Positions 9,029 through 26,426 of a DNA stretch of 64,000 nt are shown here, piece by piece. Each line of letters begins with the position of its first letter. Within the stretch, counting starts at the first letter, position 1. The position numbers were made by a program, and so were the translations under genes. This DNA is from Methanoregula formicica SMSP (GTDB lineage: Archaea; Halobacteriota; Methanomicrobia; Methanomicrobiales; Methanospirillaceae): positions 1,736,001 through 1,800,000 of the forward strand of contig NC_019943.1 of assembly GCF_000327485.1 (NCBI RefSeq), in the 5' to 3' direction. The notes beneath the pieces are model-generated. The model did no database searches. It was given only the letters and a program-made list of their open reading frames with translations, and was not told where the DNA came from.

Positions 9029-12000
9029 TCATTTGTACTCCCACCTGAGCGGGTCGCGGTCGCGGCGACGCTTCCGGATGTACCCGGCAACCGCTACCGT
9101 GAGGATGGCGATTGCGGCGATGGCTTCCGCCACCAGGAACCAGGGGTTCTTCCACAGCCCCACGGCTTTTCCCGGTGCGGTTGCGGTATCGGCAATGACC
9201 CCGGCAACATCCTGCTGCGGTGCGGGCTGCACCTCTTCGGTCGGCCACGGGGTGATCCTCACCTTCTGTTTCGTGGGTTCGGTTTGGACCGGGGTTGCGG
9301 TCGGCGTGGCGGTCGCTGTCCCCGTTGCCGTGACCGCAGGAATTGCCGCGGTGGGCGGGTAATAGGAATAACTGTCGCCGTACTCATAGTACGACCAGGA
9401 CGATGATGAACTGCTGCTGGTCGTTGTCGTCACCGGCGCGTATGCGGTCAGGACGAATGTCGAGAGGCCGGTGGGGGAGATGGCGACGAAGTAGTCGTTG
9501 CCGTCCGCAGCGCAGAGGCCGGTCCATTCGGTTGCGAGGAACGTGACCGTGCCTTCGTCCGACCGGTGCATGACTTTGATCCGGGAGGTCCCGCCGTTGT
9601 CCTCGACCCAGGTGTGGTTGACGGCCATCGTGATGTTGGCGCTTTTGATGATGCCGCCGCTCCCGTAGTTGTCAATACCGGACTTCGAGAAGTATACCGT
9701 GTACGCGGTGGCGATGATGTTCTTCTTTTCCGATGCGGCGAGAATGGTGAACGAGCTCCAGACCGAGGAGTCCGGGTCGGAGGTGATAGTGCTGTTGATC
9801 GCGGCCGAGCTATTCGGGAGCTGCGAGAGCGTAAGGGTAAGCGTCACATTCGGTTTGCCGAGCGAGTCGATATTCACGCTGACGTTGGTGGCAACGGCCT
9901 CCAGGCTCTTTACCGTGCCGGTCACGTTCCCGGAGTCGGTCACGGCAGGAGCATCGAGAGTGATCTTCAGGTGGTCCCAGGCAGTGCCGACATTGTCCAC
10001 CGTGACGATATTCGTATTGGTACTGTCGATGGTTGCATTGGCGGCGCTGATGTTGATGCCCTGGCTCGATCCGGTGGCGTTTGTCACGATACCCGGGAGT
10101 TCGAAGGTCTTGTTCGTGCTGACCGGGTTGATTACTGTGATGTAGTTTGTCCGGATCTTCGTATCGGAGCCCTTGCTGTTGGTTGCGTTGAGCTTGACCG
10201 AATAGGTGCCGGCTTTCGTGTAGGTGTAGTCCGGGATCTGTTTTGCTGAGGTACCGTCATCGCCGAAATCCCATGCCCAGCCGGTCGGCGTGTTGAGCGA
10301 GGTGTCCCTGAACCTCGGGTTGAACGGTGCGATGCCTTCGGTCTGGCTGGCGGCGAAGTCCGCGACCGGGGGGATCACCTTCGCGGTGACGGAGTACCCG
10401 CTATCGATGGGGTTGGTCCAGCCCATGCCGGACGAGGCACGGTACCCGTACACGTTGAAGACGGCGTTGTCCGGAAGGTTTGTGAACGCGTAGTCGACCC
10501 GGACCGCGCCGTTGTTCTTCAGGCCCGGACTGCTGCTGAGCAGGCCGGATCTCGTGTCGATGAACATCAGCCGGTACTGGCTGGCCGGGCTGTTCATCTC
10601 CTCTCCCTTGAAGAGCGGGTAGTCCGCGTTGCCCTGCGTGGGTTTCCAGCTCTGCGGGCCGTAGAAGAGGTCGGCTTTCGTGAACGTCTGGTCGAGGGCC
10701 GTGGACTGGTAGGTGTACGTGCCTGCAGACGGTGCTTTTCCAGAAACCGGCGTCCACGTGTACCCGCTGGTCTTGATCCGGGCCGTGAAATCGTCCGGGA
10801 TGGTGCCGTTGACCGCCAGCAGGAGGACGACCTCGTCTTCGTACGAATCCCCGGTGATATAGAATGTCCCGGACTGGCTGTTCGTTATCGTGATCTTGTT
10901 GGACGTGTCCGCAGGATCGGTCGAGAGATGGAGCACGCCAAGACCGCCCGATCCCGTCGGGAGGTAATACGTGCCGTTGTCGTTATCGTTGAACCGGATG
11001 CCGTCGTGGTTCGCTGTCCGGATGTATGTCTTGTTGTTACCCGGGACCGGGCCGGTGGCGTTGACCACGTACACGAGGCCGGCCTTTGTAACGGTGCTGC
11101 TTCCCCCGGCATTAGTTACCGTGAGCTTGACCGGGTAGGTCCCGGCCGAGCCGTAGGTGTGTGTCGGGTCCCGGTACGTCGAGGTCGCAGTATCACCGAA
11201 GTTCCAGGACCATGACGTCGGGCTGTTGGTCGAGGTGTCGGTGAAGGTTACGGCCAGCGGGGCGACGCCGTTGACCTGGGTGGCGGTGAAGGAGGCGACA
11301 GGGGAGGGAGTGGGTGTGCCGCTGCCACCACAGGTGGTGGCGGAACCGGCGCAGAAGTCGTCGATGTTGGCATTCATTCCCAGACTATTCACATCGAATG
11401 CAACTTGCACCAGATGAACTCCGGTGTACCCGGATATCGGGACTCTATATTGTGTCCAGCTATGGGCGCATATATCGGTCTGGACCAAGACACCATCGAT
11501 ATAGGTTTTAAAATACTGGTTATAAGAACTACTGCCGTCCTCATATCCCCAGAACGAGATGTTGGAAATATCAGTCAGATCGACATGCTGCGCAATGTAA
11601 TCATATGTAGTGTGACCCATATAATCGAAAAAAACGGCATAATTTCCAGTATGTACTTTACTTGAGGAGACGGATGTATACCCAACGCCTGCGGTCCAGT
11701 CTGTCAGATCTCCCGTCTCGAATCCGGGGTTACTGAACCGGTTGGTTGCCACTGATGGAGTGACCGTGATGAGATTTGTTTTCAGGAGACTGTCATTGCC
11801 CCCGCCATTCATTACGGTCAGGTTAACCGTGTATGTCCCAGGCGCATACCAATGGATCGGGTTCTGTTCGGTCGAGGTGATTCCATCCCCGAAGTCCCAC
11901 GACCAAGCAACCGGGGAATTGGTTGAGGTATCGTTGAACTGAACCGCTACAGGTGAGATACCTGAGGTGACATCCGCAGTGAAGTCCGCAACCGGAACCG

Positions 12001-14854
12001 GGGGAACGGATATGTTTATTGTCCGGGTCGTTAAGTCTGTGCCTTTTATATTCGTCGCCGTGAGTTTTACTGAGTAAGTCCCCCCTGAGGCAAATGGGTG
12101 GGACGGGTTCTGGAGGGTCGATGTAGTACCGTCACCGAAGTCCCAGAGCCAGGATTGCGGGACATTTGCCGATGTGTCGGTAAACCGGATGGGAACAAGA
12201 TTATATTCCGATGTCGTACTTGGTGAGAATCCAGCAACCGGAGCTGCCGGAATCCCGATGACCGAATACCCACTGGCACCGTAGGTGGAGCCCCCCAGGA
12301 CATCGTTGGTCATGATCATGGTACCGTGATTACTGGCAAGATACCACCCGTACGCATTGAATGCAGCGAAACTCGTCAGGTTGGTGAACGCATATTCAAT
12401 TTTGATATTGTCATATGCTTTTCCGGCGTTCAGGTCGATGAACATGATCCGGAACTGGTTGATGGGATCGGCCTGGTCCTCCCCGTAATAGATCGGATAT
12501 CCATCGGGTTTCCAGCTCTGGGGGCCGTAGATGAAATCATCCTTCGTGAATGTCTGGTCTACGGCGCCTTCGACATAATTCCACACTGACGGTAAGCCCC
12601 CATTAGAATAGGCAGGACCGGGAGGCGTCCAGTTGTCCCCGCTCGACCGGATATGGACACGGAAATCATCGGGGATCGTCCCGTTGACGGCGAGCATCAG
12701 GATCCCCTCGGGCACGGTCGATTGTCCTCCGGTATGGGTGAAATAGAATGTACCGGACTGGTTGGTGGTGGTGGTTATATCAGAGACGGAGTTTCCCGAT
12801 GAGATGTGCAGGGCGTTCAGTCCCCCCATCGTGGCGAAAGAGTAGGTATTGGGGACATAGACAAGATTGGTGCCGTTGATATCGTACTTGACTCCCTCGT
12901 CATTGGCTACGTAGAGATAGGGGTAGTCCATATTTATAGGCCCTGGCGTTACGACCGTGATGAATCCCGGTTTTGAAAGATTGGTTCCCCAGCCGATGGC
13001 ATTTTTTGCGGTAAGATTTACCATATAGGTGCCTGAACTTGCATACGTGTGGACCGGATTCTGCATGGTCGCATTTTCATTGCTCCCGTCCCCGAAGTCC
13101 CAAAGCCACGCGGTTGGCTGAAGGGTCGAGGTGTCGTGGAACTGCACGGTCAGGGGCGCTTTTCCGCTTACTCTTGGGGATCCGGTAAATGAGACAACCG
13201 GCGCAGTCGAATAGAGCGTGATATATCCTGTTTTGCTTGTCTTGTTGCTCCCAGCTAAGTTGGTTGCCGTCAGGTTGACGGTATATGTTACCGTATCTGT
13301 TCCTGTAGTGGAATAAGAATGGGTTGGATTCTGAATATCCGATGTCACACCATCCCCGAAGTCCCAGTGCCACAATGTTGGTGAACCTGTCGACGTGTCG
13401 GTAAACTGAACGGTAAACGGGCTTTTCCCGGAGGTGACGTCCGATGTGAAACCTGCGGCCGGTGGAGAATAAACCTTGATATAATCAGATTTGATTGCAT
13501 AGTTTGTTCCACTGGCGTGAGTGATCGTCAGTTTGACGGTATATGAACCGGGATTTGCATAGGAATGCTCCGGGTTCTGTTCGTCCGATGTCATGCCATC
13601 CCCGAAGTCCCAGTGCCACGTAGTTACCGCGAGAGGCGATGAGCCTATGAACTTAATGCTAAGAGGTGCTGAACCATTGATTGGACTTGCGGAAAAGTCT
13701 ACTACACCAGTAAATGCATATAATCCCCTACTGCCGGAATAACTTGTAATATATAGTGTTCCATCCGAACCGATTGAGGGAGAACCATCAGGTCTTACTC
13801 CGTTAGTAAGATAAAACCATTTCAGAGTTCCAGTTGGATTGAGAGCATAGATTTTACCATCACGACTTCCGATGTAGATGGTTCCATCCGCACCAATTGC
13901 AGGTGAAGCCCATAATATTACACCTCCCGTAGTGTAGCTCCATTTCAGGGTTCCATCCGGGTTCCATGCATATACCTTTTTATCATTGCATCCGACGTAA
14001 ATAGTTCCATCCGCACCAACTGCAGCTGAACCATACATTTTTCCTCCTGTCGTATTGCTCCATTTCAGGGTTCCATCCGAATTAAATGCATAAAATTTGG
14101 AAGTACTACTCGAACCGATATAGATTGTTCCATCTGATCCAATCACTGGTGAGGCCCTGAAAGGCACATTTGCAGAAGAATTACTCCACTTCAGGGTTCC
14201 ATCCGGATTATATGCATAGAGGGTATTCTTTGATTCACTTCCAATGTAAATGGTGCCATCCGATCCAATCGCCGGGGTAGCATATTGTGCGGTTCCTGTC
14301 GTATTGCTCCATTTCAGGGTTCCATCTTGGGGATCGAACGAATATAATGCATCGGCTCCAACATAAATCGTTCCATCTGCACCAATCGCAGGTGAACCAT
14401 ATAGGGAAGTACCGAACGTAGCGGATTGCCACTTTTTGGTTCCGTTTGGATTAATTGCGAAAAGCTTATAATCGTTACTCTCCACATAGATGGTTCCATC
14501 TGCACCAATTGCAGGCGAACCATAAATAAAAGATGTCGAACTACTCAACGATACCTGCCACTTTTGAGTTCCGTTTGGATCCAAAGCTCGGAGATTCGCA
14601 TCCTGACTTCCAATATAAATGGTCCCATCAAATCCAATAACTGGATTAACGTACCAAAAGTCTCCAGCATTCGTATAAATCCATTTGGTTGTATTTGATT
14701 GTGATCCGGTATACTGAGATCGTCCAGTGTTCTGGAGATCGTGCTGGAATTTTGGCCATGCAGTATTCGCAAGCTCTGCTGCGACCGGAACAAACAACAG
14801 GGCAAGGAAAAGAATAAGGATTCCTATACGGAATCTGAACTCATATATTTTCAT
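9029..14854 (-). CDS. giant cell-surface protein: PQQ-like propeller, seven PKD domains, C-terminal membrane anchor
   Basis: A 1941-residue exported protein. Residues 1-26 are a signal peptide (IGILILFLALLFVPVAA). Residues about 35-385 hold eight or more PQQ-like propeller repeats of the type IGADGTIYVGS...NPDGTLKW. PKD domains with the WDFGDG motif lie near 390, 465, 550, 870, 955, 1180 and 1500. Two copies of a domain shared with the neighbouring protein (LNALHISS/LGVLHLST, VNGTIPDDF, YGPQSWKP) lie near 640-865 and 1275-1495, and a lectin-like NPGFETGDLTDW domain near 1036-1175. A Ser/Thr/Pro-rich stalk, a membrane helix (WFLVAEAIAAIAILTVAVAGY) and a basic tail end it. It is likely an envelope or adhesion protein. 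The ATG at 14854 follows GGGGGAT. Confidence 0.88.
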   Translation of the reverse strand: MKIYEFRFRIGILILFLALLFVPVAAELANTAWPKFQHDLQNTGRSQYTGSQSNTTKWIYTNAGDFWYVNPVIGFDGTIYIGSQDANLRALDPNGTQKWQVSLSSSTSFIYGSPAIGADGTIYVESNDYKLFAINPNGTKKWQSATFGTSLYGSPAIGADGTIYVGADALYSFDPQDGTLKWSNTTGTAQYATPAIGSDGTIYIGSESKNTLYAYNPDGTLKWSNSSANVPFRASPVIGSDGTIYIGSSSTSKFYAFNSDGTLKWSNTTGGKMYGSAAVGADGTIYVGCNDKKVYAWNPDGTLKWSYTTGGVILWASPAIGADGTIYIGSRDGKIYALNPTGTLKWFYLTNGVRPDGSPSIGSDGTLYITSYSGSRGLYAFTGVVDFSASPINGSAPLSIKFIGSSPLAVTTWHWDFGDGMTSDEQNPEHSYANPGSYTVKLTITHASGTNYAIKSDYIKVYSPPAAGFTSDVTSGKSPFTVQFTDTSTGSPTLWHWDFGDGVTSDIQNPTHSYSTTGTDTVTYTVNLTATNLAGSNKTSKTGYITLYSTAPVVSFTGSPRVSGKAPLTVQFHDTSTLQPTAWLWDFGDGSNENATMQNPVHTYASSGTYMVNLTAKNAIGWGTNLSKPGFITVVTPGPINMDYPYLYVANDEGVKYDINGTNLVYVPNTYSFATMGGLNALHISSGNSVSDITTTTNQSGTFYFTHTGGQSTVPEGILMLAVNGTIPDDFRVHIRSSGDNWTPPGPAYSNGGLPSVWNYVEGAVDQTFTKDDFIYGPQSWKPDGYPIYYGEDQADPINQFRIMFIDLNAGKAYDNIKIEYAFTNLTSFAAFNAYGWYLASNHGTMIMTNDVLGGSTYGASGYSVIGIPAAPVAGFSPSTTSEYNLVPIRFTDTSANVPQSWLWDFGDGTTSTLQNPSHPFASGGTYSVKLTATNIKGTDLTTRTINISVPPVPVADFTADVTSGISPVAVQFNDTSTNSPVAWSWDFGDGITSTEQNPIHWYAPGTYTVNLTVMNGGGNDSLLKTNLITVTPSVATNRFSNPGFETGDLTDWTAGVGYTSVSSSKVHTGNYAVFFDYMGHTTYDYIAQHVDLTDISNISFWGYEDGSSSYNQYFKTYIDGVLVQTDICAHSWTQYRVPISGYTGVHLVQVAFDVNSLGMNANIDDFCAGSATTCGGSGTPTPSPVASFTATQVNGVAPLAVTFTDTSTNSPTSWSWNFGDTATSTYRDPTHTYGSAGTYPVKLTVTNAGGSSTVTKAGLVYVVNATGPVPGNNKTYIRTANHDGIRFNDNDNGTYYLPTGSGGLGVLHLSTDPADTSNKITITNSQSGTFYITGDSYEDEVVLLLAVNGTIPDDFTARIKTSGYTWTPVSGKAPSAGTYTYQSTALDQTFTKADLFYGPQSWKPTQGNADYPLFKGEEMNSPASQYRLMFIDTRSGLLSSSPGLKNNGAVRVDYAFTNLPDNAVFNVYGYRASSGMGWTNPIDSGYSVTAKVIPPVADFAASQTEGIAPFNPRFRDTSLNTPTGWAWDFGDDGTSAKQIPDYTYTKAGTYSVKLNATNSKGSDTKIRTNYITVINPVSTNKTFELPGIVTNATGSSQGINISAANATIDSTNTNIVTVDNVGTAWDHLKITLDAPAVTDSGNVTGTVKSLEAVATNVSVNIDSLGKPNVTLTLTLSQLPNSSAAINSTITSDPDSSVWSSFTILAASEKKNIIATAYTVYFSKSGIDNYGSGGIIKSANITMAVNHTWVEDNGGTSRIKVMHRSDEGTVTFLATEWTGLCAADGNDYFVAISPTGLSTFVLTAYAPVTTTTSSSSSSSWSYYEYGDSYSYYPPTAAIPAVTATGTATATPTATPVQTEPTKQKVRITPWPTEEVQPAPQQDVAGVIADTATAPGKAVGLWKNPWFLVAEAIAAIAILTVAVAGYIRKRRRDRDPLRWEYK

Positions 14855-15273
14855 ATCCCCCACACTTCCTCTGGGAGGGAGAATGTACGGCGGATATTCC
14901 CGGTGAATGAACACGAGAACCCTACTTCGTAACGGGTTATCTGGTTCATAGTTATATTGTCAGGGGGTATTAGGAATCTTGTTGCCATCCGCGAGATCAT
15001 TAGAACAACAATATCCGGAACAAACAGGAAGAAGGACTGGGTAGGGAAACAGCAAATCATATCCATTATTGTCATATTTTGAAAAGGGCTACGTAAATTG
15101 ATTTCTATTTACATTTTTAAAAAGTTAATATTTTATTTTTTACAAAAAGATAAGACAAGAGTACGTGTAAATCCCAAATAATAATCAGGTGTTTCTCGTT
15201 GAAAATATCCAAAAAAAGAGGGATTTACTGCCGAAATTCGACATCACTCGGCTTTAATAATTTCAAGTTAAGG
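14855..15273 (-). promoter_or_regulatory. AT-rich region between two surface-protein genes
   Basis: This 419-bp gap follows the 15.3-kb gene and precedes the giant gene on the minus strand. Its right half is strongly AT-rich (15100-15160, with runs such as ttaatattttattttttac), suitable for a terminator of one gene and a promoter of the next. The motif tcatattttga at about 15071-15081 also occurs in the cassette promoters at 16.3, 18.3 and 19.5 kb. No gene is seen. Confidence 0.4.
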
Positions 15274-16218
15274 CTACTCAGATGGCGGAATAACCAACCA
15301 TCCGCTGGAATTCGGCTTAATTAATCCATCGGTCCGTTGATCATAAGAATACACCATATTCAGCCAGTTGATACCCGGTGCCAGGGACTCCTTCCCCAGC
15401 GAGGTCTGGTTGTTAGCTGCATAGACATTGAAGGCAATCCTTGCCTTGTCTGAGGGAGCACTCAGGATGTTGTATTCGATCTTCGTTGTACCATTGTTAT
15501 ATATCAGGTCGGGATCGTATTTTGCATTATACCAGGTACCGTTGATTGTTCCAATCTTGTTATCAACCACGATAAACTTGAATAATAAGCTTCCGGATCC
15601 CATATCCTGATCACAGTAGATGGGATACTCCGCAGTTGGTGCAAACTTCCATTTCTGGAATAGATCTACGGAATTATTTTCCAAGTAGTTATCTGCGTTG
15701 AGTGTCACGTCAATTGACGGATCTTTGTAAACGACGGTCTGATTGGGAGACCCAGTTGATGTTGGTATCCAGTAATACCCACGCTCCTTGATGTTAATGC
15801 TGAAATTGCTGATATCTGTTGGTTCACTACTGTTGACCGCTATGAGGAGGATAATGTCATCCTCACCACCTTTTCCGCCAGTATCCGATACATAGAATGT
15901 ACCAGAAAGGGCATTCGTCTGATCGCAGAATCCTTTGAAATCCGCAGTGTTATTCGTAATGTGGAGCGCGTTCAGTCCACCCGTGGGTTTCGTCAGGTTG
16001 ACGTAATAATACGGGTCACCCAGATATGTGCTACTGAATCTGATGGGAGGATTTGCCATCGGGATATACGTGTGATTGTTCGTATACGGCGCACTGTTTG
16101 AGTACGGCGTTACATTATAATTCGCCGCCACCGGCCCAACCGCCAGCGCGACGAACAGGAGGACGACCGCAGAGGCCATCCACCATAGTCTGTTCATGTC
16201 TTTGTTTCCTTTTTCCAT
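15274..16218 (-). CDS. secreted surface protein related to the giant protein
   Basis: A 314-residue exported protein. The signal peptide MNRLWWMASAVVLLFVALAV with cleavage near GPVAA-N starts at residue 8. The mature part is one copy of the domain found twice in the giant neighbour: GGLNALHITN, SGTFYVSDTGG, ILLIAVNSSEP, GYYWIPT, a segment like YGPQSWKP (FQKWKFAP), and RIAFNVYAAN. No PKD repeat or membrane anchor is seen, so it is probably released or assembled onto other surface proteins. The ATG at 16218 lies seven bases after GGAGGT. Its promoter, leader and signal peptide are copied at 18.2 and 19.4 kb. Confidence 0.78.
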   Translation of the reverse strand: MEKGNKDMNRLWWMASAVVLLFVALAVGPVAANYNVTPYSNSAPYTNNHTYIPMANPPIRFSSTYLGDPYYYVNLTKPTGGLNALHITNNTADFKGFCDQTNALSGTFYVSDTGGKGGEDDIILLIAVNSSEPTDISNFSINIKERGYYWIPTSTGSPNQTVVYKDPSIDVTLNADNYLENNSVDLFQKWKFAPTAEYPIYCDQDMGSGSLLFKFIVVDNKIGTINGTWYNAKYDPDLIYNNGTTKIEYNILSAPSDKARIAFNVYAANNQTSLGKESLAPGINWLNMVYSYDQRTDGLIKPNSSGWLVIPPSE

Positions 16219-16230
16219 AGTCTGTACCTC

Positions 16231-16253
16231 CGCGCAGGGCACCGCCCCGCGCG
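16231..16253 (-). promoter_or_regulatory. leader hairpin next to the ribosome site, cassette copy 1
   Basis: The sequence cgcgc-a-gggc-acc-gccc-c-gcgcg folds into a nine-pair hairpin with one mismatch and a three-base loop. It directly abuts the GGAGGT ribosome site of the surface-protein gene. The same 23 bases occur unchanged at 18261-18283 and 19467-19489. A role in translation control is inferred. Confidence 0.55.
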
Positions 16254-16254
16254 C

Positions 16255-16326
16255 GTCAACAAAAAACCATTGATCATGGCGGTTTGTTAACAATGAAACA
16301 TTGATCAAAATATGACACGATATATC
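16255..16326 (-). promoter_or_regulatory. TATA promoter and upper leader hairpin, cassette copy 1
   Basis: On the minus strand CGAAAGATATATCG (TATA core at plus 16318-16326, preceded by a BRE-like cgaaag) is a good archaeal promoter, placing the RNA start near 16295. Immediately downstream, 16255-16291 can fold by pairing gtcaacaaa...acc with ggtttgttaac. The corresponding hairpin in copies 2 and 3 uses different bases but still pairs. Confidence 0.55.
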
Positions 16327-16593
16327 TTTCGGCCAAGTAAAAATGAGAATATAATTTGTTTTTGAGATTCCTGCGGCATATTATGCCGGATCGATAATTC
16401 TCGCCGTGAACGATCGGATGGACCGGGAGCGGTGCACCGGAGAAAGGATTATGAAGAGGGCCGGGCGGATGCGAGGGAGGATAGGCGGGCCGGGGAGTGC
16501 ATGCGACCCGGCAGGGGATGATACTCCGGCGACTCCCTCACAAATCCTTATCAGATACACAATACAACATAAGAGACAAAGGTGCTCGAAAAA

Positions 16594-16755
16594 ATGCCGG
16601 CAAAAAAATTCAAACCGGAAGACGTTATCGGGAAACCCTACCGGAGAGGCCTGCTCCCGTACGGGGGTGGAATTGTTCGGGGAAAGATCGCATTTGCAGT
16701 CAGTGAGGAAGAGCACAACGCCGATATGAAACGATTGAAAGCTCTTCGTCCATGA
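16594..16755 (+). CDS. small hypothetical protein, 53 aa, possible orphan antitoxin
   Basis: A 53-codon frame beginning MPAKKFKPEDVIGKPYRRG and ending EEEHNADMKRLKALRP. The basic N-terminus and the acidic helical C-terminus are typical of small DNA-binding antitoxins, but I recognise no named family. It starts about 55 bp after the end of an R2 repeat, the same position that R2 copies hold before the TA operons at 19.9 and 20.9 kb. No toxin partner follows; the next gene is hicB. The composition and codon use look like real coding sequence. Confidence 0.45.
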   Translation: MPAKKFKPEDVIGKPYRRGLLPYGGGIVRGKIAFAVSEEEHNADMKRLKALRP

Positions 16756-16907
16756 ACCCCTCTATTTTTCTCGATACTCCGGTATTTCCCGTGCATTGAA
16801 CATCCATTATCCGGCACAATACCTGGACATGCAATGAATGCCTTGAGTTCCAGCACCACATATCTCATTACCAGGTACAAACATACAGGTAACCGGAGAG
16901 AGGGCAT

Positions 16908-17186
16908 ATGCGGAATCTCATCACCACTGCCGAAATCTGGAAAGAGGGGGGCATGTATACGTCCTATTGCCCGGAGCTCGATATCGCCAGCTGCGGTCAC
17001 ACACCGGAAGAAGCGCGTAAGAACTTACTGGAAGTCATCGCTATTCAGCTGGAAGAAACGGAAAAACTGGGAACTCTTGATGATCTGCTCAGCGAATCCG
17101 GGTATACCCGGGACGGGGATGTGATCAAGACCGGCAAAAAGATCGTTTGCTTTGAAGAGATCCGGGTCCCGGTCTCAATACAATAA
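16908..17186 (+). CDS. hicB: HicB family antitoxin
   Basis: A 92-residue HicB. The partial RNase-H-like fold is seen as TTAEIWKEGGMYTSYCPELDIASCGHTPEEARKNL, with the conserved Tyr-Cys-Pro-Glu-Leu and the alternating helix after it. HicB proteins bind and block HicA and often repress their own promoter. The C-terminus (GKKIVCFEEIRVPV) is the strand that packs against HicA in related pairs. The ribosome site GGAGAGAGGG lies just before the ATG. hicA starts 78 bp downstream, an unusually wide gap that holds a perfect palindrome. Confidence 0.85.
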   Translation: MRNLITTAEIWKEGGMYTSYCPELDIASCGHTPEEARKNLLEVIAIQLEETEKLGTLDDLLSESGYTRDGDVIKTGKKIVCFEEIRVPVSIQ

Positions 17187-17189
17187 TAC

Positions 17190-17205
17190 GGAATATATAT
17201 ATTCC
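17190..17205. promoter_or_regulatory. 16-bp perfect palindrome between hicB and hicA
   Basis: ggaatatatatattcc is a perfect 16-base palindrome with a central TATA-like core, four bases after the hicB stop codon and 60 bases before hicA. It could be an operator for HicB, an internal promoter for hicA, or both. Its position inside the operon is unusual. Confidence 0.5.
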
Positions 17206-17264
17206 ACGATACGAGATCGTTTGTTCGCCAGCAACTTCTCCAGGTCTGTCGCGTGTGATGCCTG

Positions 17265-17492
17265 ATGAAAAAAATTTCCCCAACAGACTGGAAAACACAG
17301 GTACGGGTATTTGAAAAATCAGGATGCACATTTATTCGCCAGAGCGGCGATCATTTGATCTTCCACCATCCCTCTGCAAAACGGGCAGTCGTGATTCCCC
17401 GGTATGATGAAGTCCCTGTTACGATCATCCTCAATAATATGAAAACTATCGGCATGACGCGGGAAGAATATCTCCGGCGGATTCAGGAATAA
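17265..17492 (+). CDS. hicA: HicA family toxin (mRNA interferase)
   Basis: A 75-residue HicA with a double-stranded RNA-binding-like fold. It shows KSGCTFIRQSGDHLIFHHP, containing the catalytic histidine segment (Gly-Asp-His in place of the commoner Gly-Ser-His), then VVIPRYDEVPVTIILNNMKTIGMTREEYL. HicA cleaves mRNA when not bound by HicB. The product looks intact and of normal length. A PIN-domain fragment begins three bases after its stop codon. Confidence 0.85.
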   Translation: MKKISPTDWKTQVRVFEKSGCTFIRQSGDHLIFHHPSAKRAVVIPRYDEVPVTIILNNMKTIGMTREEYLRRIQE

Positions 17493-17494
17493 TC

Positions 17495-17689
17495 ATGTCA
17501 CGATCCGCGAACCCACGGACCGGACTTAACCACGCATATGCGATGGCGTACAATTCAGATTATTTCCTGACTTCAGACAAGAACCTGATCAAGTACCGTA
17601 TTCCGGCTATGTTGGAAAACGCCGGGTTCTTCAAACCGGAAACGATGCCCCTTGAACAATTCCGGGATGAGATCTCAAAGAAGAAATGA
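17495..17689 (+). pseudogene. PIN-domain (VapC) C-terminal fragment
   Basis: A 64-codon frame whose middle reads NHAYAMAYNSDYFLTSDKNL, typical of the last third of a VapC-type PIN ribonuclease, where the final metal-binding aspartate lies in TSDK. The N-terminal two thirds, with the first aspartate and the glutamate, are absent; hicA abuts the break. It is not expected to be an active nuclease. The open frame suggests that the break is recent or that the piece is kept. Confidence 0.55.
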
Positions 17690-17783
17690 TCTGATGGACC
17701 AGGTAAGAAATGGCGAAACTCATGTCAGGTAAAACAGCTTTGTACAATCATTGAAAAATATTCGCTTCTGGAGGAGGAGCCCG

Positions 17784-18038
17784 GTGTATAAATATGCAAT
17801 AGAGATCTTCTACAGCGAAGATGATGAGGGGTATATTGCGGTGGTACCGGAATTGCCCGGCTGCTCGGCATATGGTGAAAGCGAAGAACAGGCATTACGG
17901 GAGATCAAGACCGCGATAGATCTCTGGCTGACAACTGCCCGGAGCATGAGACGTGAGATCCCGGAGCCGCAGGGCAGGGAAGTATTGCGCGATCTCCTGG
18001 ACGAGCGTTCGCGGCAGAACGCTACTTCATGCGAGTGA
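17784..18038 (+). CDS. orphan HicB family antitoxin
   Basis: An 84-residue HicB-like protein: YAIEIFYSEDDEGYIAVVPELPGCSAYGESEEQAL, then a helix (IKTAIDLWLTTARSMRREIP) that ends in a Pro-rich linker and a charged tail. The GTG at 17784 is chosen because GGAGGAG stands a few bases before it; upstream codons back to 17751 are not family-like. No HicA frame follows: the downstream sequence is the converging signal-peptide cassette. It may neutralise the HicA at 17.3 kb, act on its own, or be a relic. Confidence 0.75.
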   Translation: MYKYAIEIFYSEDDEGYIAVVPELPGCSAYGESEEQALREIKTAIDLWLTTARSMRREIPEPQGREVLRDLLDERSRQNATSCE

Positions 18039-18128
18039 CAGCCAGCCGTACATGCTCCCATCCCCGCCAATGTTGGACCCGTACGTGCCAGCGGCGGCAT
18101 GCTTTACATTGTACACTGATAGATTCAC

Positions 18129-18248
18129 TCATTGTAGGGAAATAATCTTATCCGCCGCCACCGGCACCACTGCCGCAGCGACGAACAGGAGGACGACCGC
18201 AGAGGCCATCCACCACAATCTGTTCATGTCCTTGTTTTCTTTTGCCAT
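18129..18248 (-). CDS. signal-peptide-only ORF, cassette copy 2 (39 aa)
   Basis: The minus strand encodes MAKENKDMNRLWWMASAVVL and on through LLFVAAAVVPVAAD, then six unrelated residues and a stop. This is a complete Sec signal peptide matching that of the surface protein at 15.3-16.2 kb, with the same GGAGGT ribosome site, leader hairpins and promoter, but with no mature protein attached. It may be a decapitated gene or a kept leader cassette. Confidence 0.5.
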   Translation of the reverse strand: MAKENKDMNRLWWMASAVVLLFVAAAVVPVAADKIISLQ

Positions 18249-18535
18249 AGTCTGTACCTCCGCGCAGGGCACCGCCCCGCGCGCGCGTTAAAAATTAGTA
18301 ATTGGTTTTACCAATTTTTAACATCAAACTGTTAATCGAAATATGACACGATATATCTTTCAACTGAGTGAAAAATAAGAATATAATTTGTTTTAGGGAT
18401 TCCTGCGGCATATCGGGCCGGATAAAAAATCCTCGCCGTGAACGATCGGATGGACCGGGAGCGGTGCGGCTGCGAAAGGATTATGGGCGAGATCGGGCGG
18501 ACGCAAAGGGGATACGGCGGGGGTACCGGATGGAA
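18145..18535 (-). repeat. composite repeat copy 2: signal peptide, leader, promoter and R2 element
   Basis: Copy 2 of the composite repeat. The invariant GC hairpin is at 18261-18283, the upper hairpin (gttaaaaatt paired with aatttttaac) at 18287-18322, the TATA core cgatatatc at 18349-18357, and R2 from about 18416 with ccgtgaacgatcggatggac. Differences from copy 1 are spread through the repeat, so the duplication is not very recent. The gap 18249-18570 holds nothing else. Confidence 0.75.
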
Positions 18536-18570
18536 CAATCATCCCATGAACATGCCCCGGGTCAGGGGAC

Positions 18571-19050
18571 TCATCTGGTAAAAAGCGATTCCGGATCAAG
18601 ATCCCGGATCAGCCAGGCAGCAATCGATCTCCGCTGGCAGATCCGGAACATCCCCGCATCGTCAGTAAACAATGGAACCGACTTCAGCTCGGCAAGCGCA
18701 AGAAAATAGGTATCAAAACCTGGACATCCTTCATCAAGAGCAATGGTCATCGCAGTCTCGTAAACACGATCTTCCGGGACAAGCGTGTAGCTGTTTTCCA
18801 CTTCATTACAGATATCCTTGGAATTGTGAGAATTGGAAAGCCTTATGGATACCGCAGCAATCTCGATAAGGCCGCAGCGGGGAAGGATCACTTCTATCCC
18901 GTGGTCATCAAGAGCAGCAAGCAATGCGATACAAGAGTGATGAGTTTTTAATTCCCTAGAATAGGTAACGCCCGCATTCTTTCGTGACGGGGAGAAGAGT
19001 GCCTTGATGATAACGGAGGTATCGATAACACAGGAAGAAAACTCAGGCAT
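18571..19050 (-). CDS. vapC: PIN-domain toxin (VapC-like)
   Basis: A 159-residue PIN nuclease. The acidic metal-binding residues are visible: Asp in CVIDTSVIIKAL, Glu in CGLIEIAAV, Asp in CPGFDTYFLALAEL and Asp in LFTDDAGMF. VapC toxins cut tRNA or rRNA. The ATG at 19050 overlaps the end of the antitoxin gene by eight bases, and upstream in-frame residues belong to the antitoxin region. The gene looks intact and ends 41 bp from an R2 repeat. Confidence 0.83.
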   Translation of the reverse strand: MPEFSSCVIDTSVIIKALFSPSRKNAGVTYSRELKTHHSCIALLAALDDHGIEVILPRCGLIEIAAVSIRLSNSHNSKDICNEVENSYTLVPEDRVYETAMTIALDEGCPGFDTYFLALAELKSVPLFTDDAGMFRICQRRSIAAWLIRDLDPESLFTR

Positions 19051-19246
19051 CCCGTATTCGTCTCCGGTTCTTCGCAAGGATAGTATCAATATCCTCTTTA
19101 GCCTCCGGTTCACCGAATTTTTTTACAAAATCAGAAAATTTTTTCCGGATCACAACTTCTACCCGGGCATGTTCCGGAAGGTTCACGCGATCCTCAAGTA
19201 TGAGCGTCCCTTCTTTATACACGGCATTCGTTTTGATCGCAGACAC
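19043..19246 (-). CDS. vapB: VapB-type antitoxin (DUF104/AbrB-like)
   Basis: A 67-residue antitoxin. The N-terminal swapped-hairpin DNA-binding part is NAVYKEGTLILEDRVNLPEHARVEVVI, close to the DUF104 family of archaeal antitoxins, and the acidic C-terminus (EPEAKEDIDTILAKNRRR) would wrap the toxin. It overlaps vapC. It lies about 100 bp downstream of cassette copy 3 on the same strand, so that promoter and its 34-codon leader peptide could drive this operon. Confidence 0.8.
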   Translation of the reverse strand: MSAIKTNAVYKEGTLILEDRVNLPEHARVEVVIRKKFSDFVKKFGEPEAKEDIDTILAKNRRRIRDA

Positions 19247-19349
19247 AATTCATCACAACCGGATAATTCACATCATAATAGCAGGGAATTAAAGATAATG
19301 GTTGTGATGAAAGAATTTTAATATTCTGAATCATCCGCAGACAATCAGC

Positions 19350-19454
19350 TCACGGATAATCCGCCGCCACCGGCGCAACCGCCAGCGCGACAAACAGGAG
19401 GACGACCGCCGAGGCCATCCACCATTGTCTGTTCATGTGTTCTTGTTTCTTCAT
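19350..19454 (-). CDS. signal-peptide-only ORF, cassette copy 3 (34 aa)
   Basis: The minus strand encodes MKKQEHMNRQWWMASAVVLL and on through FVALAVAPVAADYP, then a stop. It has the same promoter, hairpins and ribosome site as the genuine surface-protein gene. As in copy 2, nothing of the mature protein remains. The vapBC operon follows on the same strand. Confidence 0.5.
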   Translation of the reverse strand: MKKQEHMNRQWWMASAVVLLFVALAVAPVAADYP

Positions 19455-19740
19455 GTTCTGTACCTCCGCGCAGGGCACCGCCCCGCGCGCGTTAAAAATT
19501 AGTAATTTACATTTACCAATTTTTAACATAAAACCGTTGATCAAAATATGACACGATATATCTTTCGTTTGCATGAAAAGGTTGAATATATTTTATTTTT
19601 GAAATTCCTGCAGAATATTATGCCGGATCGATAATTTTCGCCGTGAACGCTCGGATGGACCGGGAGCGGTGCACCGGAGAAAGGATTATGAAGAGGGCCG
19701 GGCGGATGCGAGGGAGGATAGGCGGGCCGGGGATATAGTG
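19357..19740 (-). repeat. composite repeat copy 3: signal peptide, leader, promoter and R2 element
   Basis: Copy 3. The GC hairpin is at 19467-19489, the upper hairpin (gttaaaaatt / aatttttaac) at 19491-19527, the TATA core at 19554-19562, and R2 at about 19622-19735, nearly identical there to copy 1. A relB-like gene begins about 120 bp to the right on the other strand. The gap 19455-19860 contains no other gene. Confidence 0.75.
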
Positions 19741-19847: not shown

Positions 19848-19859
19848 TACAATATTGTA
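19848..19859. promoter_or_regulatory. 12-bp palindrome before the RelBE-type operon at 19.9 kb
   Basis: tacaatattgta is a perfect 12-base palindrome ending two bases before the ATG at 19861. The position suits an autorepressor site for the antitoxin. A related half site, acaatagt, lies just upstream. Confidence 0.5.
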
Positions 19860-19860
19860 T

Positions 19861-20136
19861 ATGACCGCACTTACCAAGCGGATACCCGTGTCCGAACCGG
19901 TCTGGAAAGACCTTGCAGAGCTGCGGAGGGCCGGGCAGACCTACGATGACATCCTCGTGGAGATGATCGACCTCCAGAAGAAACAGCGGCTTGAGGAAGA
20001 TATCCGGCAATCCCTTGAAGAAGGTGATTTTGTTCCTCTCAATGAGATCAAGGCACGGAAAAATAAAGGATATGCAACGGGAGAACGGACCACACCCAAG
20101 ATTACCCGGAACAAACGCCAGGGTCTCCCGGCATAG
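19861..20136 (+). CDS. RelB-like antitoxin
   Basis: A 91-residue antitoxin candidate. The N-terminus (TKRIPVSEPVWKDLAELRRAGQTYDDILVEMI) reads as a ribbon-helix-helix-like DNA-binding domain, followed by a charged helix and a Lys/Arg-rich tail. The ATG at 19861 is preferred to a TTG two codons earlier. The RelE-like toxin starts 20 bp downstream. A palindrome next to the start suggests autoregulation. The tail (KITRNKRQGLPA) is longer and more basic than usual. Confidence 0.75.
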   Translation: MTALTKRIPVSEPVWKDLAELRRAGQTYDDILVEMIDLQKKQRLEEDIRQSLEEGDFVPLNEIKARKNKGYATGERTTPKITRNKRQGLPA

Positions 20137-20156
20137 ACGATCCGGATCTGGTACCC

Positions 20157-20444
20157 TTGGGTTTTACCGTGGTTGCCGGGCCAAAAGCCCGGGCGTTTAT
20201 CGATCTCCTGCCCGTAAAAGATCAACAGATCATCGTTACCACTCTTGACCGGCTGGCAGCCGGTCCCTGGCCGGGGAAAGGCGGCGATAAAGAGAAACTC
20301 GTACTACCCGGGGGAATCATCTCGTACCGGATACACGTTGGCAGAAGGTATACGGCATTCTATACAATTGACAAAGAAGCAAAACGGGTCCTGGTTCATT
20401 TTGTGATGACCATCGAGCAGGCCCATAAGAAATACGGGCGCTGA
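20157..20444 (+). CDS. RelE/ParE family toxin
   Basis: A 95-residue RelE-superfamily protein: FTVVAGPKARAFIDLLP, a helix, LAAGPWPGKGGDKEKLVLPGG, then the core strands ISYRIHVGRRYTAFYTIDKE and VLVHFVMTIEQAHKKYGR. The Arg/Tyr-rich strands match mRNA interferases of this fold. The best start is TTG at 20157, since no ATG or GTG is in frame nearby. It is probably translated together with the antitoxin. Confidence 0.78.
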   Translation: MGFTVVAGPKARAFIDLLPVKDQQIIVTTLDRLAAGPWPGKGGDKEKLVLPGGIISYRIHVGRRYTAFYTIDKEAKRVLVHFVMTIEQAHKKYGR

Positions 20445-20794: not shown

Positions 20795-20877
20795 GCCCCG
20801 GGCGGACGCAAGGTGGACGGCGGGGCCTGGGTGAGCATGCGACCTGGCAGGGGATGACACCCCCCGTACCTCCGCCG
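20795..20877 (-). repeat. partial R2 repeat, copy 4
   Basis: ccgggcggacgcaaggtgga followed by gagcatgcgacctggcagggg matches the right-hand part of composite copy 1. The promoter and signal-peptide portions are absent. It ends about 55 bp before a RelBE-type operon, like copies 1 and 3 before their neighbours. Confidence 0.55.
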
Positions 20878-20915
20878 CGGGCAATCCCGAAGGATCTGGT
20901 TTAATATCTATAGTC

Positions 20916-20925
20916 ACCTATAGGT
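20916..20925. promoter_or_regulatory. palindromic operator candidate before the RelBE-type operon at 20.9 kb
   Basis: acctataggt is a perfect 10-base palindrome seven bases before the ATG at 20932, and ctatag is repeated just upstream at 20908-20913. A TATA-like ttaatatcta at 20901-20910 overlaps it, so a repressor bound here would block transcription. Confidence 0.5.
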
Positions 20926-20931
20926 CTTACT

Positions 20932-21168
20932 ATGCAGGCTGCAAGTTCCATTTACATCCGGGAAGATCTCAAAACCCAGCTGAACACCCTGAAACGTCAC
21001 CCGAAAGAATCGTACAATGACGTTATTGAACGCCTGGTGAATCTTGCTGTTGACGATGAACCGCTCAGTGCCGATGCTATCCGGGGTCTGGAAGAAGGTC
21101 TCCATGATATCAAAGCGGGAAACCTGATCCCTGAAGAGGAAATCCGGAAGAAATACGGTGCTGAATGA
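20932..21168 (+). CDS. antitoxin of a RelE-type pair (ribbon-helix-helix-like)
   Basis: A 78-residue protein: SSIYIREDLKTQLNTLKRHPKESYNDVIERLVNLA looks like a ribbon-helix-helix DNA-binding domain, and the acidic C-terminal helix (LEEGLHDIKAGNLIPEEEIRKKYG) is the usual toxin-binding element of archaeal RelB/VapB proteins. Its stop overlaps the toxin start by four bases (ATGA), the classic coupled TA arrangement. An operator-like palindrome precedes it. Confidence 0.82.
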   Translation: MQAASSIYIREDLKTQLNTLKRHPKESYNDVIERLVNLAVDDEPLSADAIRGLEEGLHDIKAGNLIPEEEIRKKYGAE

Positions 21169-21440
21169 GCCCGTACAGAGTACAGTACACCCATCGTGCA
21201 GACCGGGATCTGGAAAAATTACCCCGGGAGATTGCCCGGAAGGTTGTCAGTGCGATTCACCAGATACGGGATGACCCGTACCAGTTCATCAAAAAAATGA
21301 AGGCGTCAAACCCGGATCATCCGGTGTATTCACTCCGTGTCAGAAGAGACGTTCGTGCACTGCTCTCAATCCATGATGACCTCCTGATTATTCATGTTCT
21401 TGAAATCGAACACAGGAAACAGGCATACCGGGATTTCTAA
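21165..21440 (+). CDS. RelE family toxin
   Basis: A 91-residue RelE-like mRNA interferase: YRVQYTHRADRDLEKLPREIARKVVSAI, then DDPYQFIKKMKAS, the strands VYSLRVRRDVRALLSIHDDLLIIHVLEIEHRKQAYRDF with the conserved Arg residues and C-terminal Tyr-Arg. It is complete and of normal length, with coupled translation from the antitoxin. Only this pair and the one at 19.9 kb are RelE-type here, and the two toxins are clearly different in sequence. Confidence 0.85.
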   Translation: MSPYRVQYTHRADRDLEKLPREIARKVVSAIHQIRDDPYQFIKKMKASNPDHPVYSLRVRRDVRALLSIHDDLLIIHVLEIEHRKQAYRDF

Positions 21441-21450
21441 AAAACATATT

Positions 21451-21540
21451 CCGGCCGGGCGGCAGCACAAATTCTGGCGCATGCCAGCCGCACGGGAGCA
21501 GGAGAGGGGACACAGGCGAACCGGGAACGCGGGCCGGGAG
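21451..21540 (+). repeat. R1 repeat, copy a
   Basis: Begins ccggccgggcggcagcac and continues through gccagccgcacgggagcagg to cgaaccgggaacgcgggccg. It lies ten bases after the RelE stop. The rest of the gap to 21746 shows no gene. Confidence 0.75.
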
Positions 21541-21746: not shown

Positions 21747-22881
21747 TCAACTCCGGATATTCTTCAGGTATTCCGCAAAAAGCGGGTGAAACAACGAATA
21801 TTTTCCCCGCTCAACCCTGGACAGCAATGGTGCAGGGGAACCACTCAGGTTCTTTAAGTAGATATTCACGCTTTTCACACCGCTCAATTCTGCGATCTCC
21901 GTATTACTCAACAAATCCTTATGGGACAAAACAAAAGCCTGGAGGATCTTCCGCTCGTTCTGGCTTGTCCGGGAATAAATACTTTCGAATAATCTCTTCC
22001 CCAGATATGCAAGAATCCGGGAAAAGTTCTGTTCCAGATCCGCAACAGTGATCCGGACCCCGGTCTTGGAGGAAAAAAGATTATAGGCAAAAACCTGCAC
22101 AAAATAGGGATGTCCCCGGGTAAGCTCGAAAATTCTGTCCATACAGGCATCCTCGAAAACAATACCGGTACCGGTAAGCGGTTTGGTTATCGCCTCGTAA
22201 GTTTCTTCCCGCGAGAACGGACCAAGATCAATCCCCCAGAAAAAACGCACCGCCGGTTCGGATGCCGAACGCATATCGGCAAACAAGGTCTCTTTACCCG
22301 AGAGGATCAGCATGCATCGTATACCATCGGCAGACTGGATCATCTGGAAGATATTCCGCAGTTCAAATATGGCGCCCTTGATCGCAAGCAGCTGCTCTGC
22401 ATTATCCAGCATAATCAGGTAGGGAACATCAAGCGTACCGGATATAGAGATGAGATCTTCTTTGAACCGGAACATGTCCGGGTTTACTTTCTTCTTATCC
22501 GAATAGGATATCCCGACGGGTCCGTAGTTTACACTCAGGGAAAGCCCCTCAAGAAACTCCCGGATTTTCACTGCCGCTCCGCTCATCGGGGTTGCATCCT
22601 TTGCAAGGCTCCGGGTTATCGTCTCAAAAAGCGCGATGAATGAATCGGTAGATTCACCCAGTTCAATGATTGTCGCGGCACAATTCCTGTGCTCCGCACG
22701 ATGCTTGAATGTCCGTAACAGCGAGGTCTTTCCGATCCCCCATCCCCCAAGGATGGCCAGATTCTTTAAAATTCCCGTCGATAGTATCTGCAAGAAACCG
22801 ATCAAACTCCTCAATCTGGTGTACCCGTCCGGCAAATTTTTCCGGAGGGACCGGGTGTTCAGCGCTGTACGGATTAACCAT
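21747..22881 (-). pseudogene. AAA-type ATPase gene with a +1 frameshift
   Basis: The true N-terminus is MVNPYSAEHPVPPEKFAGR followed by an acidic helix ending in TIDGN, encoded from 22881. About 40 codons in, the frame changes at the run ctttaaaatt (22764-22773). Beyond it the other frame carries the Walker A motif GGWGIGKTS, a Walker B-like LIMLDNAE, a sensor-like LILSGKE, and a C-terminal winged-helix-like region (LSNTEIAELSG). Removing one base restores a product of about 377 residues of the STAND/ATPase type. Such ATPases are common in methanogens with unknown roles. The break may be a mutation, a sequencing error at a homopolymer or, less likely, programmed slippage. Confidence 0.72.
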
Positions 22882-23116
22882 CGTAATCGTTTCTCCACAA
22901 AAATTAAAAAAATTAATGAAATTAATTGGTGGCCTTAATTGATATAATTTTCATCATTTCCAAAAAAGATCCGGGATATCGTTCTTAACAAAGACGACTG
23001 GTTACCTTGCCAGGCACAAATCAAATGACTGCCCATGGAAGCAAAAACGCCAAACGAAATCCGGATTCAGGGGTTTGAAGTCTTGGGAGAAAATCCCGTG
23101 CCTGCGGACGCGATCC

Positions 23117-23246
23117 CGGCCCGGTCCCGGGCCCCGCCTTTCCATAGATCCGGCCGCGCCCGGGCGGCAGCACCAATCCCGACGCAGGCCAGCCGCTCGG
23201 GAGCAGAGGGCGGAACACAGGCGAACCGGGAACGCAGCTCCCGTCT
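23117..23246 (+). repeat. R1 repeat, copy b
   Basis: A full-length copy: cggcccggtcccgggccccg, tttccatagatccggc, cggcagcaccaatcccgacg and gcgaaccgggaacgc. It differs from the others by a few bases and a small insertion (cgcgcccggg). It lies in the 564-bp gap between the ATPase gene and an MntA-HepT operon; the rest of that gap shows no gene. Confidence 0.75.
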
Positions 23247-23445
23247 AATCAGCGGGAAACGATCGAACGGCCATCACAAGGAAAGGGAAAAAGAGATCTA
23301 TACTCCGGCATGATATGAGAGAATAATTCTTTTGCAGTTGCCGGTACCCCCGCCCCAGAGCAAGAATCTATAAACAGCCAGCAGCTAAAACCGTAAACAA
23401 CAGCGATATTCATCAGGTACAGGGAAATTCGGGAGTGAAACGATC

Positions 23446-23757
23446 ATGAATCCACTCATCGTGAGCCGGGAAAAAAAGATAGAAGAGTTCTGTAAAAAGT
23501 GGAACGTACGCGAACTCCTGGTCTTCGGCTCTGCCTTAAGGGCTGATTTCCGCCCGGAAAGTGACATTGATATCATCGTGGATTTCAAACCCGGCTCTGT
23601 GCATACCCTTCTTCATCTCGCAAAAATGGAGGAAGAACTTGAACGGGTTTTTGGCAGGCGTATCGATCTCATTACCCGCAAGGCCATAGAACAAAGCCGG
23701 AATCACATACGGAAAAAGACGATCCTTTCAACAATGGTGCCGGTCTATGTCGCGTGA
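23446..23757 (+). CDS. mntA: MntA-type minimal nucleotidyltransferase antitoxin
   Basis: A 103-residue nucleotidyltransferase with the signature FGSALRADFRPESDIDIIVDF (GS...SDIDxxV). In characterised pairs MntA transfers AMP to a tyrosine of HepT and so silences it. The C-terminal helix (DLITRKAIEQS) is typical. It overlaps the HepT gene by 11 bases. The ATG at 23446 follows gaaattcgggagtgaaacgatc, where GGAG provides a ribosome site. Confidence 0.85.
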   Translation: MNPLIVSREKKIEEFCKKWNVRELLVFGSALRADFRPESDIDIIVDFKPGSVHTLLHLAKMEEELERVFGRRIDLITRKAIEQSRNHIRKKTILSTMVPVYVA

Positions 23758-24091
23758 CGATGCCTATCTTCTCGACCTTCTCCTTATGGCAAAGGACGCA
23801 CACGAGTTCACGAAGAACCAGACCCGGGAATCCTTTCTTTCGGATCGGAAGGGCCAGTACGCAGTTATCCGGTGCCTCGAAGTGATCGGGGAAGTATCGA
23901 AGCGGCTCTCCCCGGAGACAATACGCCGGTTCTCGTCAATCGAATGGTCATCTATGGCACGGATGCGGGACATGCTCATTCATTCCTATGGCAAAGTGGA
24001 TCTTGACGAGATCTGGGACACGGTTAAAGAGGACATCCCGCATCTCATCGCAACGCTTGAACCATGTATCGATGAATTTGAGCGTCAGTAA
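23747..24091 (+). CDS. hepT: HepT-type HEPN toxin
   Basis: A 114-residue HEPN ribonuclease. The catalytic RxxxxHxY motif is RDMLIHSYG near residue 79, with the tyrosine as the expected AMPylation site. The helical layout (LLDLLLMAKDAHEFT, IRCLEVIGEVSKRLSPE, WSSMARMRD) is standard. It is intact. Together with the overlapping mntA it forms one of four MntA-HepT pairs in this island, and their sequences differ enough that recent local duplication is unlikely. Confidence 0.87.
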   Translation: MSRDDAYLLDLLLMAKDAHEFTKNQTRESFLSDRKGQYAVIRCLEVIGEVSKRLSPETIRRFSSIEWSSMARMRDMLIHSYGKVDLDEIWDTVKEDIPHLIATLEPCIDEFERQ

Positions 24092-24186
24092 CCGGCGTGG
24101 CTGCCTTTACCCTGGTGGCGGACCTTCTAAAAATCCTCTCTTCATCAGTCTTTTAATCAGGAAAGCCGAGGAGACCCGGGGGAGTT

Positions 24187-24423
24187 TCACGCCTCGACCT
24201 CAATAACGGAGGTAAATTTTTCCGGGGACGAGATGGAAGGTTCGATATCCCCGATCATATCGTATTCGCGTGCATTTTTCAGGTAGAGATCGATCGCCTC
24301 CCGGATATTTTCGAGTGCTTCTTTGGGGGTATCGCCACAGCTCGCCACTTCCAGTTCAACGCACTTTGATACATACACACCATCTTCTTCCCAGATGGTG
24401 ACCGTAAAATGATAATTTGCCAT
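24187..24423 (-). CDS. orphan HicB family antitoxin
   Basis: A 78-residue HicB-like protein: YHFTVTIWEEDGVYVSKCVELEVASCGDTPKEALENIREAIDLYL, then NAREYDMIGDIEPSISSPEKFTSVIEVEA. It closely follows the HicB pattern at 16.9 kb, including the Cys-Val-Glu-Leu core. No hicA gene lies on either side: the downstream neighbour is the end of hepT. It is the third orphan HicB in the island. Confidence 0.8.
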   Translation of the reverse strand: MANYHFTVTIWEEDGVYVSKCVELEVASCGDTPKEALENIREAIDLYLKNAREYDMIGDIEPSISSPEKFTSVIEVEA

Positions 24424-24679
24424 CTTTTCTCAACCGGATAGATTATCGATCACGGGCAATGAACTTTGTTGTCGCGGTTGTCTGCAAGAAAACGAAAAGA
24501 GAGGGAAAGAGACCACAGGATCCCGGGCATATGGGACATCCACGAACGTCCTGCTGCTGTGAGTTCGCGATCTTGCTGGGGGACCGGTGATGATCTGCTA
24601 AAGATTATGAAGAAGAATGCACCACGTACATCTGTATGTGCAGATAATCCGCTGCACTGGTTGATGGAGGTGAATCATC

Positions 24680-24883
24680 ATGGGGAGTAAAACGATCGCA
24701 AAGATCCAGAGTGAAGGATACGATGCCCTTGTTAATGCACTTGGGCCGGAGGATGCGATTCGGTTCATCAGGAGTTTTGATCCCGGCAGTGGCGATTACA
24801 CCAAGGACCGGAAAAAATATCTTAAGAAAATGACAGTAAAACAGATTGGAAAAGAGATTCTCGAATTGCAGAAATCTCTCTGA
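24680..24883 (+). CDS. hypothetical protein, 67 aa, antitoxin-like
   Basis: A small protein: MGSKTIAKIQSEGYDALVNA, then LGPEDAIRFIRSFDPGSGDYTKDRKKYLKKMT and a charged C-terminal helix (VKQIGKEILELQKSL). A very good ribosome site (GGAGGTGA) precedes the ATG. The size, charge pattern and place in a TA island suggest the antitoxin half of a pair whose toxin is missing; the following 346 bp contain only an R1 repeat. The family name is not known to me. Confidence 0.6.
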   Translation: MGSKTIAKIQSEGYDALVNALGPEDAIRFIRSFDPGSGDYTKDRKKYLKKMTVKQIGKEILELQKSL

Positions 24884-25000
24884 ATATTTCAGCCAGTCTC
24901 TTTTTTATCATAACTTCCTGGAAAATGCCAGTCGAAGAACGAATACCCGGCAGCGAAATGCTTTTCTCCGGATTGGGACCGCTCCAGATACCAGACCCCC

Positions 25001-26330: not shown

Positions 26331-26426
26331 GGGGGAGAACGATGCAGGAGAAAGGGGGAACCTGCCGTGGATATGACAAAGGAAATAATTATTGTGGGAC
26401 ACAGCAGATAGGATGACAGGAATAGC

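Follow-up and report, generated by a model that had tools for sequence, protein, structure and literature searches.

Why should a complete gene start be kept where no gene stands behind it? This question is raised by a stretch of 64 kb in the archaeon Methanoregula formicica (positions 1,736,001-1,800,000 of its single-contig genome of 2,820,858 bases, hereafter the window), in which a cassette made of a GC-rich upstream block (R1up), a TATA promoter, a two-hairpin leader, a ribosome site and a Sec signal peptide is present three times, with a surface-type protein gene behind one copy only. Such a cassette is called here a head, and those of the window are numbered copies 1 to 3. They were compared with 39 genomes of the genus, including the sister genome G028, a Methanoregula metagenome-assembled genome (MAG) whose heads are labelled S1, S2 and S3. 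The comparison indicates that the heads are probably both homology anchors and scars of a recombination-driven exchange of toxin-antitoxin (TA) modules.

Three heads and one gene body

The three composite repeats all lie on the minus strand in one orientation, and over about 370-380 nt copy 1 is 86% identical to copy 3 and 82-83% to copy 2, with 81% between copies 2 and 3. Their limits are nearly alike: the upstream ends fall near 16496, 18521 and 19733, and the downstream end is the signal-peptidase site, where sequence conservation among the copies breaks off sharply. Each contains an exact TATA element GAAAGATATATC (16319-16330, 18350-18361 and 19555-19566, minus strand). With up to one mismatch allowed, this element is matched five times in the window against 0.26 expected, the three exact matches all being in the cassettes, and none of 100 shuffled windows reached five matches. 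Each copy also has a GGAGGT ribosome site (16226-16231, 18256-18261 and 19462-19467) and a Sec signal peptide of the form MNR-WWMASAVVLLFVAxAVxPVAA. The open reading frame (ORF) of copy 1 (15274-16218, minus strand) runs on to 314 aa and encodes a secreted surface-type protein with an N-terminal signal peptide and no Pfam or NCBIfam family. The ORF of copy 2 (18129-18248, minus strand) ends 7 codons past the signal-peptidase site, at 39 aa, and that of copy 3 (19350-19454, minus strand) 2 codons past it, at 34 aa. A preliminary description of this DNA had reported these same parts, a surface protein behind copy 1 and stops after 39 and 34 residues in the two others, and it was borne out in each respect, the surface location being an inferred one.

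The R1up blocks (16390-16496, 18390-18521 and 19595-19733, minus strand, inner limits approximate) are 96% identical between copies 1 and 3 and 74% between copies 1 and 2; within the sister, S1 and S3 share 91% in this block, a likeness that suggests gene conversion within genomes. A relic of R1up devoid of promoter, leader and signal peptide is found at 20798-20863 (minus strand). A fourth full head is located at 728 kb of the same genome, before a paralogous gene of 302 aa.

Toxin-antitoxin cargo between the heads

Between heads 1 and 2 lies a TA cargo block of 1.64 kb (16576-18217) that shows 9 differences from G028 (99.4% identity), whereas the flanking core DNA is 87.4-90.5% identical, head 1 about 93% and body 1 about 60%. 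Both the copy-2 stub and this cargo are shared with G028, which is the only other genome of the genus set with the three-head locus. This identity is lost abruptly on the far side, over about 12 bases of the sequence in head 2 that encodes the signal peptide (18218-18230). Upstream of this point the same slot is filled differently: M. formicica has VapBC and then head 3, whereas G028 has a HEPN-MNT unit, an AAA gene that is truncated, and a third head unlike the one here. The VapBC matching 18591-19304 is present in four other genomes (G030, G011, G010 and G029), where the leader model described below detects no head.

The heads themselves are mosaic. In copy 2 the promoter (97%) and hairpin 1 (100%) match S3, the N-terminal codons are of the kind seen in copy 1, and the signal peptide with its tail matches S2 (100%). 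In a maximum chi-square permutation test, a single history was rejected for several triplets (0 of 5000 permutations), and the test of copy 3 between copy 1 and the 728-kb head was not significant (1038 of 5000). Chimeras in a sister strain, which had been predicted beforehand, do exist, but the exchanged cargo consists of TA modules and not of surface bodies.

The block between heads 1 and 2 contains a 57-aa ORF (16582-16755, plus strand), a probable antitoxin that is the partner of a PIN-like toxin in relatives. Here a HicBA-type module, composed of a HicB-like ORF (16908-17186, plus strand; assigned by position, without Pfam match) and a HicA toxin (17265-17492, plus strand; PF07927, E=1.8e-11), interrupts the PIN-like partner. 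The C-terminal part of the split toxin persists as a 64-aa ORF (17495-17689, plus strand), which matches residues 96-156 of a 156-aa protein of genome G038 at 67% and is PIN-like by this resemblance only, with no Pfam match; in G038 the pair is intact (L121:8103-8749). A HicB-like antitoxin gene (17751-18038, plus strand; PF15919, E=7e-9) comes next. VapBC, with a PIN toxin and an AF2212-like antitoxin, occupies the slot between heads 2 and 3 (18571-19246, minus strand), and an antitoxin-like ORF with a weak ParE-like toxin is found upstream of copy 3 (19855-20444, plus strand). With HicA, HicB, PIN, AF2212-like, ParE, HepT and MNT families recognised, the locus is a type II TA island. In another species (G027:C375:7000-14964, L117), VapBC-like and HicB-like pieces likewise directly precede a gene for a PKD surface protein, a hint that TA modules gather preferentially at surface loci.

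A second repeat, R2, structures the neighbouring DNA. Seven copies in one orientation lie between TA units in 21.4-30.0 kb and delimit them (21450-21538, 23116-23235, 24947-25129, 26250-26370, 27235-27345, 28797-28923 and 29870-30000, plus strand). R2 is GC-rich, about 80-180 nt long and confined to this genome and G028, except for a 31-nt fragment that also matches G007; elsewhere in the M. formicica genome only a stretch beside the 728-kb head (728073-728255) and 31 nt near 761 kb match it. R1up and R2 were considered as a single repeat family, and no convincing similarity was seen. In G028 the R2-flanked units are reordered with junctions in R2: RelBE (20888-21530, 99.7%) joins the 23160-24518 unit through R2, and the AAA unit is absent. 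Identities of TA units at this array to G028 reach 94.6-99.7%, again above the core, and the TA unit located in G028 beside a head of the 728-kb type (L016) corresponds to the window unit 24098-25129 at 96.7%. The window gene at 21747-22898 encodes a STAND/AAA-type NTPase, of which G028 retains only the first codons, fused behind S3 and cut by the HEPN-MNT unit.

Some further observations were made in the window. A stretch of 87 nt in the TA array (28265-28351) is also found, at 84%, at the end of the giant-gene region (8502-8588), and a direct repeat of 63 nt, 97% identical, is located at 58993-59055 and 59820-59882, 830 nt apart. No tRNA that might form an integration site was found in the 64 kb, and carriage by a phage, virus or plasmid was discarded, with no match in plasmid, phage and viral collections.

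A leader RNA and its surface-protein genes

Ten heads were found in four Methanoregula genomes, namely the three of the window, that at 728 kb, four in G028 and one each in G036 and G038. All ten exhibit two hairpins between about 30 nt downstream of the TATA element and the ribosome site, the leader beginning near the predicted transcription start site. In the window the leaders occupy 16216-16293 (hairpin 1, hairpin 2, GGAGGT and ATG), 18246-18324 and 19452-19529, all on the minus strand, and score 88.9, 83 and 94.3 bits with the covariance model R1. In hairpin 1 the pairing is kept while the sequence varies freely, which favours a hairpin in the RNA over an operator in the DNA. In the named structure 93.1% of the cells pair, against 38-53% when it is slid, both partners have changed in six pairs of the leader, and the alignment has a covariation score of 0.245, shuffled alignments giving 0.150 (0 of 500 reaching 0.245). 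These statistics are to be read with caution, since the aligned heads are related to one another and were partly the source of the structure itself. RNAalifold returned essentially the same two-hairpin structure. No Rfam 15 covariance model matched 15-31 kb of the window at E<=1, and the model built on the leader detected these ten only in the 39 genomes of the genus and none further in 108 genomes of the family, which makes it a lineage-specific leader. As judged from the alignment, it is a genuine structured RNA element whose hairpins appear to be kept by compensatory change, and its most likely role would be to stabilise the surface mRNA or tune its translation. Similarly, the mRNA of the Methanosarcina S-layer gene has a long 5' leader with a TATA element and potential secondary structures, and its upstream untranslated regions are conserved between species (PMC3361143). 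Compared by description, both are leaders of methanogen surface-protein mRNAs, but that of Methanoregula is shorter and has covariation in its favour.

The gene family behind the heads is present in 5 of the 39 genomes. The mature part of the copy 1 protein is modelled as all-beta with low confidence (pLDDT 54), and the model had no significant match in the PDB. In M. formicica the family comprises the two head-bearing genes, proteins of 835 and 271 aa with other N-termini, and domains in giant PKD proteins, a giant PKD/PQQ-type surface protein gene following both the window locus and the 728-kb locus. G036 and G038 each have one head and one body, beside ABC-type genes and a larger paralog that also flank the 728-kb copy. 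This synteny makes the 728-kb locus the ancestral one, a single head with a single body there being the original state, and the multi-head state is derived. The giant PKD/PQQ gene and the surface body of the window (9029-15830) are about 60-89% identical to G028 and adjoin a stretch at 97.9% (7991-8710); this divergence suggests local replacement or diversifying selection.

Probable recombination at the heads and its rivals

Under the explanation that we favour, each cassette would be the ordinary 5' end of a lineage-specific Methanoregula surface-gene family, copy 1 alone retaining its body. Their strong conservation and their repetition in a single orientation ahead of a surface gene would open the heads to homologous recombination with one another. 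If DNA with a head and TA cargo integrated by a single crossover, or if crossing-over was unequal, the cargo would come to lie between two heads and the outer head would be left bodiless, and later crossovers within heads would swap the cargo, so that TA units would repeatedly be inserted, swapped and transferred at these sites. That the stubs were created in this manner and have no useful product is what we infer, and the same applies to the intermediate, to the direction of the process and to the way in which each stub arose. More tentatively, the heads and R2 might together form an integrase-free archaeal cassette array, whose repeats would act as homology sockets that capture TA units, permute them and pass them between species, with one bodiless head for each capture.

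Several points weigh against recombination driven by the heads. No intermediate, be it circular DNA or an empty site, was seen, and the three bodiless junctions all lie near the signal-peptidase site, for which simple crossovers alone are insufficient. The direction is not proved either, as the heads may drive the exchange or be repeats tolerated in a TA island. The mosaic tests can be inflated by a sequence that is short and unevenly constrained, and the surface location of the 314-aa protein is deduced from its signal peptide and its kinship with PKD surface proteins. Furthermore, G028 is a MAG in which the contig of the locus has about 4x coverage and the array contigs end at repeats, so that a between-strain chimeric assembly could mimic some mosaics. 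Against such an assembly count the 60-kb contig of G028, which joins core DNA at 88-90% to 99.4% cargo that still carries differences, and the other TA units with intermediate identities to G028.

The main rival remains a plain decay of tandem genes, which we consider unlikely: duplication would have given three tandem surface genes, two of whose bodies were deleted as TA modules inserted in or next to them, the heads being passive. The copy 2 stub is indeed old enough to be common to the sister, and HicBA splits a PIN-type pair, TA modules entering one another, which indicates that insertion damage is common here. In these respects the proposal of the preliminary description that the stubs are decapitated remains overrun by TA insertions came closer to the data than its alternative, but the expected remnant is lacking, as neither of the two stubs nor the third head of the sister is followed by any detectable surface-body homology. 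The in-frame tail of copy 2 past its stop (VNLSVYNVKHAAAGTYGSNIGGDGSMYGWLSLA), which looks surface-like, was rejected as a body remnant because its profile score was no better than that of shuffled sequences (197th against 1000 shuffles) and because its only match is within the pair of copy 2 and S2. Full-length genes behind all three heads, which would point to simple truncation, were not found in the relatives. Decay also leaves unexplained the breakpoint inside head 2, the mosaic heads and the differing cargo between the same two heads.

The other readings fare worse. An antigenic-variation repertoire, in which heads recombine with surface bodies and switch the expressed protein, had been put forward beforehand; it might account for the mosaic heads and for a body 1 of only about 60% DNA identity between sisters beside a conserved head. 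Such switching is unsupported, since the genome contains no headless surface bodies and the stub tails have no detectable body homology, and it is made very unlikely by a promoter on every head and by the lack of a site-specific tyrosine recombinase in the window, the nearest being at 1.33 and 2.43 Mb. It is also highly improbable that the repeat of about 380 nt is a small non-autonomous mobile element carrying promoter, leader and signal peptide: its copies do have nearly the same two ends, but these bear no terminal inverted repeats, R1up is missing from the heads at 728 kb and S2, and the whole genome has no more than four heads, of which two precede real genes, plus the single R1up relic. 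By eye, no target-site duplication was seen in the flanks of copies 2 and 3. Finally, copies 2 and 3 are intact from the promoter through the leader and ribosome site to the ORF, which could mean that the stubs are functional, as promoter donors to their neighbours or as short membrane peptides. This has little chance of being correct, as a convergent gene faces copy 2 and the tails differ, being conserved only between S2 and copy 2. Copy 3 faces VapBC and might serve as its promoter, yet VapBC is accompanied by an upstream region of its own that is conserved in four other genomes.

Each ingredient of this locus has a precedent (PMC2268961; PMC9668308; PMC3361143). In surface-lipoprotein families of mycoplasmas (vpma, vsp, vsa), the 5' untranslated region and the signal-peptide code are conserved, mature parts vary and recombination occurs at the 5' end (PMC2268961), as proposed for Methanoregula. 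The vpma locus has a unique active promoter, silent genes and a site-specific inversion driven by Xer1 (PMC2268961), whereas each Methanoregula head has its own TATA element and leader and hence a predicted promoter, the cargo is TA, and neither silent headless bodies, nor a single active promoter (promoters being judged by sequence), nor a nearby recombinase was found. Archaeal integrons contain TA-rich cassette arrays (PMC9668308), and here too small units, often TA, are separated by repeats of the same orientation and permuted between relatives. Unlike integrons, the array has no tyrosine recombinase nearby and its repeats are gene heads or GC-rich R2; an integron gene-cassette array was rejected, as PF00589 is matched only at 284 kb, 1.33 Mb and 2.43 Mb and never in the window. 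By inspection only, the arms of hairpin 1 (GTT...AAC) are the reverse of the outer ends of attC. The HicBA, VapBC, RelBE/ParE and HEPN-MNT modules belong to the families found in other archaeal and bacterial TA islands, where they are likewise clustered and nested, but here the units are bounded by surface-gene heads or R2, in which crossovers can be traced. In open-licence full texts, we found no precedent for surface-gene heads acting as integrase-free anchors of TA exchange.

One gain from this locus is a covarying leader RNA of methanogen surface-protein mRNAs that had not been described. Little is understood of how TA islands of archaea expand and spread in the absence of integrases, and mappable crossovers are provided here, with cargo at 99% in a genome at about 90% and ends that fall within a repeated gene head. 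An intact promoter, leader and signal peptide can thus be a recombination scar, a pitfall for the annotation of small secreted peptides.

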